DNA of 33,188 nucleotides from Actinomycetes bacterium (GTDB lineage: Bacteria; Actinomycetota; Acidimicrobiia; Acidimicrobiales; Bog-793), in the NCBI GenBank assembly GCA_021796545.1, contig JAKABX010000010.1, forward strand, positions 1-33,188. The letters are read 5' to 3'. The notes beneath the pieces were generated by a model that was given only the letters and a program-made list of their open reading frames with translations, ran no database searches and was not told where the DNA came from. Positions within the stretch are counted from its first letter, which is position 1. Every line of letters starts with the position of its first letter. The position numbers were made by a program, and so were the translations under genes. Shown in pieces: positions 5,803-14,039 of this stretch.

Positions 5803-6950
5803 CAGCGCGGGGCCGCGGCGAAGCGCGCCAGCGTGAAGCGGCGGGCCTCCTCGGGCAGCTCGCCGTCGGTGACAAAGGACGCGAGCGCATCCGCGCTCAC
5901 CGGGGTGAGGAGCACGCCGTTGCGGTAGTGGCCGGTCGCACAGAGCAGGCCGGGCAGCGGGGTGGGGCCGAGGATCGGCGCGTTGTCCGGGGTCCCCGGG
6001 CGCAGACCGGCGTTCACCTCGACGAGCTCGACCTCGGCGACGAGGGGCACGAGACCGGTCGCCGCCCGCAGGAGCTCGTAGCAGGCGCCGGCGGTGACGC
6101 TCTGGTCGAAGCCCTTCTCCTCGGCCGTCGCCCCGATGACGAGCTCGCCGTCGTCGCGGGGGACGAGGTAGACGGGGCGGCCGCGCGCGATCCCGCGCAC
6201 GGTGCGGGTGAGCAGGGGGCGGTAGGTGTCCGGGACGTGGCAGCGCACGATCTGGCCCTTGACCGGGCGCACCGGGACGCGCGCCTCCTCAGGCACGCCG
6301 GCGAGCGTCCCGCTCGCCGCCCCCGCCGCGAGGACGACGACGTCGGCCTCGAGAAGCTCGCCGTCATCGAGCGCGACGCCGCGTGCCGCGTCGTCGGCGA
6401 CGACGAGGGCCCGGGCCGCGACGCGCCGAAGCACGACGCCGGCCCGCTCGCACGCGACGAGCAGGGCCGCGACGACGCGGCGGTTGTCGACGGAGTGGTC
6501 GCCGGCGACGAGGATCCCGCCGCCGACACCGGGGGCGAGGAGCGGCTCGAGCTCCCGGCACGCGCGGGCGCCGAGCACCTCGACCTCGAGGCCGAGCGAG
6601 CGCTGGTAGTCGGCGAGCTCCTCGAGGACCACGCGGTCGTCCGCGTCGAAGGCGACGGCGAGGGTGCCCGATCGGCGGTAGCCGATGGGCATGCCGGCCG
6701 CCTCCTCGAGCGCGGCCGCGAAGTCCGGCCAGCGGCCCGCCGCGACGAGGTTGAGGGCGAGAAGGGGCTCCTCGCCGTAGTGGACCTCGGTCACCGGGGC
6801 GAGCATGCCCGCCGCGACCCGGGAGGCACCGCTTCCTGGCGCGGCGTCCACCACCGCGACCGTCATCTTTCGCGCGCTCAGCCGCCACGCGACGGCGAGC
6901 CCGAGAAGGCCGCCGCCCACGACGGCGACGTCCACGCGCTCGGTCGACAT
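5802..6950 (-). CDS. thiO: Glycine oxidase ThiO
   Basis: A 382-residue FAD-dependent oxidoreductase of the DAO family that oxidises glycine to dehydroglycine (iminoacetate) for thiazole synthesis. The Rossmann FAD motif VAVVGGGLLGLAVAWRLS is at the N-terminus. Later come VPVRPVKGQIVRC, the family segment YLVPRDDGELVIGATAEEKGFD, and the C-terminal FAD-binding NAGLRPGTPDNAPILG with TGHYRNGVLLTP. The ATG at 6950 lies a few bases after a TPP riboswitch and is preceded by GGAGGGAGAGG. Use of ThiO rather than ThiH points to oxygen-dependent thiazole synthesis. It is the first gene of the thiO-thiS-thiG unit. Confidence 0.95.
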
Positions 6951-11991: not shown

Positions 11992-12714
11992 CTAGGCGGT
12001 GATCCCCGGCAGGACGAGCGTCCAGAAGTGGTCGAGTTGCTGGCGCGCATCCTGGCGGCCGCCGATGTGCTCGCTCACGAAGTGGGCCCCCTGGAAGAAG
12101 GAGACGACCATCTGGGCGACCTGGCGTGGGTCGACCTCGGGGCGCAGCTCCTTCTGGCGCTTGGCGGCGCGCAGCAGGGTGCCTGCACGCTCCATCCACT
12201 CGCCGAAGGGCTCGGGGAGCTCGGCGTCGATGAGGTTGCGCTCACCGACAAGGCGCGCGCCCGCCCGCCAGACGGGGTCGCTGCGCTGCAGGTCGGCGGC
12301 GCGCCGGCTCAGCGCGACCAGCGCCTCGAGGCGGGTCGTCGGGGCCTTTTGCACCTCGTTGCCGAGCGCGGCGAATGCGGCGAAGTAGCGGTCGACGATC
12401 TCGGCGGCGACCGCCTCCTTGGTCGGGAAGTAGAAGTAGAGGGCGCCCTTGGTGTAGCCGAGACCTTCGACGACGTCGGTGAGGTTCACCCCGCAGTAGC
12501 CGCGCGCGGCGAACGCCTCCGACGCCGCCCGCAAGATGAGCTCCCGGGTGCTGATCTCCCCCCGCTCGCCGCGACGCGGACGTCCGATCGGACGCGAGCG
12601 ACCGGCGGGCGCGCCCGCCGCCGTCGCGCTCGAGGGGCGGGCCGTCGCCCGGCCGCCCTGGGTCTCCCTGCGCCGGCCCGGACGGCCAGCGGGTGTGTTT
12701 CGTGCTACAGCCAT
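11992..12714 (-). CDS. TetR-family regulator of the gamma-butyrolactone receptor (ScbR/ArpA) type
   Basis: A 240-residue regulator. The N-terminal 50 residues are basic and disordered, with two GRP-R motifs (GRPGRRR, GRPRRGERG) that recall AT-hooks. The TetR helix-turn-helix follows at about residues 56-102 (LTDVVEGLGYTKGALYFYFPTKEA). The ligand domain resembles butyrolactone receptors: a RAGARL segment, PFGEWMERAGTLL with a Trp (about residue 173) matching the ligand-contacting Trp of ArpA, ELRPEVDPRQVAQMVVSFFQGAHFVSE, and a closing WTLVLPGI. A palindrome resembling the operator of such receptors lies about 50 bases upstream, suggesting autoregulation. No AfsA/ScbA-type butyrolactone synthase is seen in the window. 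The subfamily assignment rests on residue pattern only. Confidence 0.82.
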   Translation of the reverse strand: MAVARNTPAGRPGRRRETQGGRATARPSSATAAGAPAGRSRPIGRPRRGERGEISTRELILRAASEAFAARGYCGVNLTDVVEGLGYTKGALYFYFPTKEAVAAEIVDRYFAAFAALGNEVQKAPTTRLEALVALSRRAADLQRSDPVWRAGARLVGERNLIDAELPEPFGEWMERAGTLLRAAKRQKELRPEVDPRQVAQMVVSFFQGAHFVSEHIGGRQDARQQLDHFWTLVLPGITA

Positions 12715-12766
12715 GAAGGCATGTTAGGAGGGTTACGTCGCGATGTCTAATCACCCCGCTCAAAGG

Positions 12767-12790
12767 TTCATACCACGCCTTCGGTATCAC
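12767..12790. promoter_or_regulatory. ARE-like palindromic operator upstream of the ScbR-type regulator
   Basis: The core is ATACC (12770-12774), an 8-base spacer, then GGTAT (12783-12787), with the right arm extending to TCGGTAT. This matches the core and exact spacing of the ArpA/ScbR consensus, whose half-site is GGTCGGTATGT. The outer positions match poorly. It sits 53-76 bases before the regulator's ATG, a natural place for autoregulation. Binding is inferred. Confidence 0.55.
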
Positions 12791-13022: not shown

Positions 13023-14039
13023 CTAGCGCTCGAGGAGGAGCCGACCCCCGGCGTAGTCGACGATCGCGGTGCCGGCCGAGGAGAGCACGTCCGCGCCGAG
13101 GAGGCCGGCCGCGTCGATCCCGCCGGCGGGGAGGACCGCGAGCGTGCGGCTCGAGAGGACGACCCCCCCGAGCGACCACCGCCCGCTGCGGACCTGTGCG
13201 ACGCGCACGGGGCACCCGAAGGCGGCGAGCACGAGGTCGCCGGGCGCCGCCGCGAGCGACGCCCGGCGCGCGAGCGACGACGAGACCGCCGAGAGCGCCG
13301 CGCCGGTGTCGACGACGAGATCCGCGGCGTGCCCGGCGAAGTCCACCCGCACCTCGGCGACCACCGCCTGGCCGGCGCGGACGAGAGACAGCCGGGCGCG
13401 CAGGCGGACCTCGCGGGCGCGCAGGCGCGCCGACGTCCCCCCGCGCGCGCCGGCGCGCGGGGAGGAGGCGAGGACGAGACGCCCTCGGGCGTAGTCGATT
13501 GCGATCTCGCCGAAGCGGCTCAGCTCATCCGAGCCGACGATCCCGTCGATCCGCACGGGAAGGCGCGGCAGCGCACCGACGAGCACGGTGCCGGGGCCGA
13601 GGGCCGCACCCCCGAGCGACCAGGCGGCAACCGCGCTCGGCACGACGCGCGCGCGGCACTTCAGCCCCGCGGCAAACCCGCTCGGCCCGCTCGCCACCAG
13701 GCCGAGGCGGTGTGCGAGCGCGGGGGTGACGAGCGAGCGGGCGGCGCCCGTGTCGATCAGGAACGGGTACGGACCGCGCCGCCCAAAACAGACCGGCGCG
13801 ACGACGACCGGGCCGTGCAGGATCCTCACGCTGCGCACGGCCAGGCTCTGCGGGTAGCGGGCGCGGATCCCGCAGGCCCGGGCTTGGACGGCGGCGACAC
13901 GTGGGGCGGGGGTGGACGCCGGGGAAGGAGCGCGCGCGCCGCTCGGGGAGGCGCCCGCCAGGACACCGGCCGTGACGAGGCCGATCAGGGCGGTGCCGCG
14001 CCGGCGCGTTGCCGGCGCGCGGCGCCAGGGCCGAGGCAC
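13023..14039 (-). CDS. Secreted protein with two fused retropepsin-like aspartyl protease domains
   Basis: A 338-residue protein. The N-terminus is basic, then hydrophobic (GTALIGLVTAGVLAGASPSGARA), a likely signal peptide. Two similar lobes follow. Lobe one has the active-site motif FLIDTGAARSLV (Asp at about 96) and ends DGIVGSDELSRFGEIAIDYARGRLVL. Lobe two has LVVDTGAALSAV (Asp at about 244) and ends AGLLGADVLSSAGTAIVDYAGGRLLLE. Each lobe thus carries D-T-G and a late hydrophobic-Gly flap-type motif, as in single-domain retropepsin-like proteins that dimerise. Here both halves are in one chain, as in pepsin. The gene begins 15 bases after dnaB on the same strand and may share its transcript. 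Substrate unknown. Confidence 0.75.
   Translation of the reverse strand: MPRPWRRAPATRRRGTALIGLVTAGVLAGASPSGARAPSPASTPAPRVAAVQARACGIRARYPQSLAVRSVRILHGPVVVAPVCFGRRGPYPFLIDTGAARSLVTPALAHRLGLVASGPSGFAAGLKCRARVVPSAVAAWSLGGAALGPGTVLVGALPRLPVRIDGIVGSDELSRFGEIAIDYARGRLVLASSPRAGARGGTSARLRAREVRLRARLSLVRAGQAVVAEVRVDFAGHAADLVVDTGAALSAVSSSLARRASLAAAPGDLVLAAFGCPVRVAQVRSGRWSLGGVVLSSRTLAVLPAGGIDAAGLLGADVLSSAGTAIVDYAGGRLLLER

Follow-up and report, generated by a model that had tools for sequence, protein, structure and literature searches.

Repressors of the ScbR/ArpA kind are used by Streptomyces to sense its own antibiotic-triggering hormones. To our knowledge, work on hormone control of the ScbR/AfsA type has been confined almost entirely to Streptomyces and related bacteria. 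The window examined here (the whole stretch of 33,188 nucleotides that was analyzed) comes from a member of the Acidimicrobiia and holds a gene resembling such a receptor. Is this protein a hormone receptor, is the palindrome upstream of it the receptor's operator, and where could a ligand originate? In the portion of a 2016 review that was available, no quorum-sensing reports were given as available for Acidimicrobiia (PMC4748050), and among open-licence full texts no other paper was found that joins this class with butyrolactones. Receptor, operator and, in two congeners, synthase are described together here in a class for which no report was found.

Identity and fold of the receptor

The gene (positions 11,992–12,714, minus strand) encodes a TetR-type repressor of 240 residues. 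A reading made from the sequence alone (hereafter, the sequence-only reading) had assigned it ScbR/ArpA features, and this was borne out: TKGALYF (residues 88–94), W173 and LPGI (residues 235–238) are all present, and the NCBIfam model NF041196 (ScbR family autoregulator-binding transcription factor) matched at 171.3 bits, above its cut-off of 150. The runner-up NCBIfam model reached 57.9 bits, far under its cut-off of 247. Three Pfam models exceeded their cut-offs: TetR_N (PF00440, 46.8 bits), which marks the helix-turn-helix DNA-binding domain (residues 60–106; 12,397–12,537, minus strand), TetR_C_45 (PF21935, 49.6 bits), which marks the ligand-binding domain (residues 127–238; 12,001–12,336, minus strand), and TetR_C_13.

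A sequence search of the PDB returned 6srn/7ky1 as the best match (134.8 bits); CprB scored 80.3 bits. These two entries were taken as MmfR: across the full 214 residues, 6srn differs at two positions from the product of the receptor gene in a methylenomycin-type cassette carried by a Streptomyces anthocyanicus plasmid (L096, NZ_CP109103.1). The cassette was identified as mmfR-mmfLHP from its gene order and from the accessible part of PMC13307308. An AlphaFold model of the receptor, calculated from nine input sequences, had a mean pLDDT of 80.8. In a fold search, this predicted structure was placed closest to 7ky1 (Z 24.2, rmsd 2.8, 188 residues) and 6srn (Z 23.9, rmsd 2.2, 186 residues), followed by CprB (Z 21.2), AvaR1 (Z 20.1) and TylP (Z 19.1). 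The nearest solved relative of the receptor is therefore MmfR, the methylenomycin-furan receptor of SCP1-type Streptomyces plasmids (40–41% identity), and not ArpA or ScbR. With the Streptomyces receptors ArpA, ScbR, CprB, AvaR1 and TylP the protein shares its fold, the family model that also describes ScbR, and the conserved Trp, but identity is 35% to CprB and 31% to AvaR1. Family model, fold, conserved Trp, operator and tree all make the protein a member of the ScbR/ArpA family.

The protein begins with a basic extension (codons 1–54; 12,553–12,714, minus strand) that has a net charge of +10, contains two GRP motifs and is predicted to be disordered (pLDDT below 50 for most of residues 1–52 in the model). 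The ATG of codon 1 is the sole ATG, GTG or TTG upstream of codon 61 in the frame; so far as start codons show, the extension is real. It had been called unusual, which holds in comparison with MmfR but not with the congeners' receptors: in both congeners the first receptor carries a 64-residue tail (net charge +11 in one, +10 in the other), and in the remaining copies, whose start codons were in part assigned by hand, the tail is shorter (22–45 residues). The tail is a lineage trait of low complexity; that it makes additional DNA contacts is a guess.

The probable operator

As the sequence-only reading had proposed, an ARE-like palindrome, ATACCACGCCTTCGGTAT (ATACC-N8-GGTAT), lies at 12,770–12,787, 55 bp upstream of the receptor ATG. 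Its frame fits the 22-bp ArpA/CprB consensus ACATACGGGACGCCCCGTTTAT (ATAC-N10-GTTT), as given in the part of PMC4150764 that was available. From base composition, 0.003 exact motifs are expected per window and 0.16 per genome; the genome that contains the window has 2.

The spacing of the half-sites was examined in 44 distinct receptor genes gathered by protein similarity, the window's included, using at most 600 bp upstream of the domain (one of these regions was just 4 bases long). The exact motif occurred upstream of 8 of them, every time with a spacer of 8; spacers of 2–7 and 9–16 yielded none in the same 44 regions, and two control motifs yielded none at any spacer from 2 to 16. Shuffled upstream regions contained a mean of 0.004 exact motifs. 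In six whole genomes there were 8 exact sites, 5 of which lie in receptor/synthase cassettes (the window's own genome, G000; the congeners G001 and G002; and G425 and G513, from another class of the same phylum). The binomial chance of this outcome, allowing 4 kb per receptor locus, is 3e-13. The other three are found on G000 C106, G001 C150 and G513 C86. No exact operator was present in the whole genome of G009, a receptor-bearing member of the same family, or upstream of the second receptors of the two congeners.

The operators of the window and of the two congeners have the half-sites alone in common; their 8 central bases are unrelated. The same format recurs in the methylenomycin cassette, with ATACCTGCGGGAAGGTAT in the mmfL-mmfR gap and ATACCCTCGGGAAGGTAT ahead of the mmyR-type gene (NZ_CP109103.1). 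According to the sections of PMC5625687 and PMC13307308 that were accessible, which name the sites but do not spell out their sequence, MmfR and MmyR act on sites called MARE. The spacing test and its controls, together with conservation in the congeners, led to the rejection of a chance palindrome, and the motif at 12,770–12,787 is, from these comparisons, very probably the receptor's operator.

The search for further ARE-like sites in the same genome had a divided outcome. Two exact sites do exist, but the second lies inside an aminotransferase gene; a regulon in this genome was rejected on that account. One-mismatch sites were regarded as noise because 2 were found against about 7.6 expected. 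Elsewhere, the exact site on G001 C150 (L118:1501–1518) lies roughly 0.3 kb ahead of a frame that encodes a PF04198 sugar-binding domain and could be either a regulatory target or a chance occurrence.

A scan for promoters found one sigma-70-like match, TAGACA-17-TAACAT (12,721–12,749, minus strand), where shuffled sequences gave a mean of 0.0. Going by its match to the consensus, this candidate promoter ends 7 bp before the start codon and would produce a nearly leaderless mRNA. Simple occlusion by the operator is not evident, because this sole promoter-like site lies between operator and gene. In the congeners, the right half of the operator, as read by eye, continues into the −10-like hexamer TATGCT immediately before the synthase.

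The ligand pocket

Roles of pocket residues in AvaR1 were taken from the available text of PMC7347384, in which the numbering of the threonines varies (107/108 and 161/162). Aligned with AvaR1, the receptor keeps Trp127, Val158 and Phe161 as W173, V204 and F207; the codon of Trp173, the equivalent of the ligand-wall Trp127, is at 12,196–12,198 (minus strand). In place of the lactone-side residues Gln64, Thr108, Thr162 and Gln165, the receptor has Tyr110, Val156, Gln208 and His211, a difference from AvaR1 that counts against the gamma-butyrolactone ligand first suggested for this protein. The features of a furan receptor of the MmfR type (Tyr85 and the bulky Leu150/Leu151 at the pocket base) are likewise absent: MmfR Tyr85, Gln130, Leu150 and Leu151 align with F111, V156, R176 and A177. 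Neither set of contacts is matched, and the pocket therefore does not name a ligand class; a classical butyrolactone seems the less likely guess. At the position of R176 (His130 in AvaR1), the 10 aligned receptors of the clade have Arg (7), Lys (2) or His (1), and the Arg or Lys could pair with an acidic group.

Occurrence of AfsA-family synthases

Family models were run over several genome sets. PF03756 (AfsA) was detected in 18 of 396 genomes of the phylum, which served as a positive control, and in none of 14 control genomes. None of 296 genomes of the class exceeded the cut-off (one weak match fell below it), and among 60 relatives it was present in two, both of them congeners (G001 and G002). 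NF041196 exceeded its cut-off in 4 of 35 genomes of the family and in a single one of the 296 sampled from the class, namely the window's own.

In both congeners (L012 in G001, L013 in G002), the first receptor is divergent from an AfsA-family gene, and the exact operator lies between the two. The two synthases matched PF03756 at 110.9 and 106.3 bits (cut-off 24), each with two AfsA hotdog stretches. They scored 179 and 183 bits against the NCBIfam ScbA/BarX equivalog, whose cut-off is 200, and are for this reason called AfsA-family rather than ScbA. On its far side, the first receptor is followed by a CrtI/CrtO-like FAD oxidoreductase and then by a second receptor that falls below the NF041196 cut-off. 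This arrangement, in which a divergent receptor/synthase pair is accompanied by a second TetR gene, parallels mmfR-mmfL plus mmyR. It differs in that inspection by eye of the genes beside the congeners' synthase, part of which were also searched against families, revealed neither a HAD phosphatase nor an acyl-CoA dehydrogenase (the MmfP and MmfH kinds). The oxidoreductase between the two receptors (L012:2955–4505 and L013:2081–3631; the G001 copy reaches 236 bits for CrtO against a cut-off of 1000) may be an enzyme that tailors the signal.

The window locus differs from the MmfR system in that it has no synthase. Searched by tblastn with the AfsA proteins of both congeners, the window gave nothing better than E 0.77, and an afsA remnant was rejected on this basis; the congeners' oxidoreductase gave nothing real there. 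An AfsA neighbor is usual in the family but not required. Receptors without an adjacent synthase are known, for example CprB, so the missing neighbor does not exclude family membership. The search of the genome for AfsA homologues came back empty: neither PF03756 nor a profile of four clade synthases found one in the assembly, which is 68% complete (1.78 Mb, versus 3.6–3.8 Mb in the congeners). Around the receptor, 12 kb of sequence on one side and 20 kb on the other are assembled, and no synthase lies there. In G009 (92% complete), the receptor is present and neither PF03756 nor the clade profile found a synthase. The original remark that no synthase is nearby thus stands for the window, where tblastn values were at least E 0.77, but not for the lineage, as both congeners carry an AfsA-family gene beside the receptor and the lineage therefore has a candidate ligand source.

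Phylogenetic analysis

In the receptor tree, the window's protein groups with those of G009, G001 (three copies) and G002 (two copies) with support of 98/89, and this group joins the receptors of G425 and G513 with support of 99/94. The proposed phylogenetic check thus came out in favor of the assignment, as the receptor falls among AfsA-linked receptors. Its place inside the clade is weakly supported (92/63 and 95/78), and the backbone does not order the clade, MmfR (which lies outside it), AvaR1 and CprB; the bootstrap had not fully settled. A fused frame of 720 residues (L072) was left out, and L031/L032 together with nine distant entries came from a second search. In the synthase tree, from which frames with fewer than 200 matched residues were omitted, the G001 and G002 proteins form a lone long branch outside the Streptomyces clades, and their relation to those of G425 and G513 is not settled. 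A strictly Streptomyces-derived gene was rejected, since the receptor and the congeners' synthase both fall outside the Streptomyces clades. Co-inheritance of synthase and receptor was also set aside, given the position of G001 and G002 relative to G425 and G513 in the synthase tree.

The G425 and G513 receptors are 43–49% identical to that of the window and have an exact or near-exact operator, but they keep the synthase alongside. On G425 C59 (L106:799–6636), the exact operator (6619–6636) lies between the clade receptor and a leftward run of genes for LytB/IspH, a terpene synthase, an SrpI-like encapsulin shell protein with a cyclic-nucleotide-binding domain, and a polyprenyl synthetase; this terpene-encapsulin operon is possibly under hormone control. 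On G513 C254 (L119:1501–1518), the exact operator separates the end of afsA from an electron-transfer-flavoprotein gene.

A proposed circuit and its alternatives

The protein is probably an autoregulated, hormone-released repressor of the MmfR/ScbR type that belongs to an AfsA-type circuit of Acidimicrobiales and stands solo at the window locus. By analogy with MmfR, a receptor dimer would bind the palindrome upstream of its own gene and hold the promoter low until a small AfsA-derived autoregulator, bound in the pocket around Trp173, caused its release. In the congeners, where the operator lies between receptor and synthase, one release event would raise both receptor and signal, creating a positive loop. 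In the window's genome, the receptor would act alone, at a place where the examined congener has none, and its ligand would be supplied either by a synthase encoded in the third of the genome that the assembly lacks, or by other cells. The first of these sources, a true receptor whose synthase cassette is missing from the assembly, is plausible without being quite probable. The incompleteness of the assembly agrees with it, as do the three receptors of G001, in light of which the window's receptor could be an additional copy, but the synthase-free sequence around the receptor and the nearly complete G009, likewise with a receptor and no synthase, speak against it. A more specific version holds that the lineage's hormone is AfsA-derived but differs from classical gamma-butyrolactones, butenolides and methylenomycin furans alike, and that some members, those of the window and G009 among them, dropped the synthase and listen to their neighbors' hormone; this version is rather doubtful.

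The receptor could instead be a pseudo-receptor of the MmyR/ScbR2 type, which kept the operator, lost the hormone and now answers to another metabolite or to none. The solo position and the altered lactone- and furan-contact positions would suit such a protein, and the lineage does make copies of this sort: the congeners' second receptor is more altered still (Leu and Glu at AvaR1 positions 161 and 165). The window receptor nevertheless retains Trp173, Val204, Phe207 and the AGARL helix motif, whereas Glu takes the place of the Trp in the methylenomycin cassette's MmyR-type protein, and it passes the NF041196 cut-off that the congeners' second receptors miss; a pseudo-receptor is distinctly unlikely. 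An ordinary regulator of efflux or metabolism beside an accidental palindrome would fit the common occurrence of TetR regulators and of chance copies of the motif such as that in the aminotransferase gene. That reading is contradicted by family model, tree, fold, spacing test and congener conservation, and is very improbable. Three short pieces of DNA, for the receptor, the operator and a congener's synthase, would allow a direct test of the hormone-released repressor, which we prefer. A receptor that has been kept without its synthase also offers a concrete case in which a bacterium may be sensing the hormones of other species.

Genomic context of the window

The window's genome is that of a member of the Acidimicrobiales, an order that has received little study. 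Contamination of the bin was rejected: the dnaB, rplI and rpsR products of the contig are 82–90% identical to those of G002 and occur in the same order. The order rpsF-ssb-rpsR-rplI-dnaB-aspartyl protease is kept in G002, where the protease is followed by response-regulator-like genes (translations read by eye) and not by a receptor. G001 and G009 gave no match to the aspartyl protease, and the comparison of the locus is with one congener, G002; on gene order, the receptor seems to sit at a break.

The protease itself (13,023–14,039) is retropepsin-like, with two stretches of PF13650; it adjoins dnaB, a position kept in G002. Elsewhere in the window, the segment 4,779–7,786 encodes ThiG, a small ThiS-like frame (recognized by eye) and a DAO-family oxidase (ThiO by position); its gene for a thiamine monophosphate synthase runs on the opposite strand.
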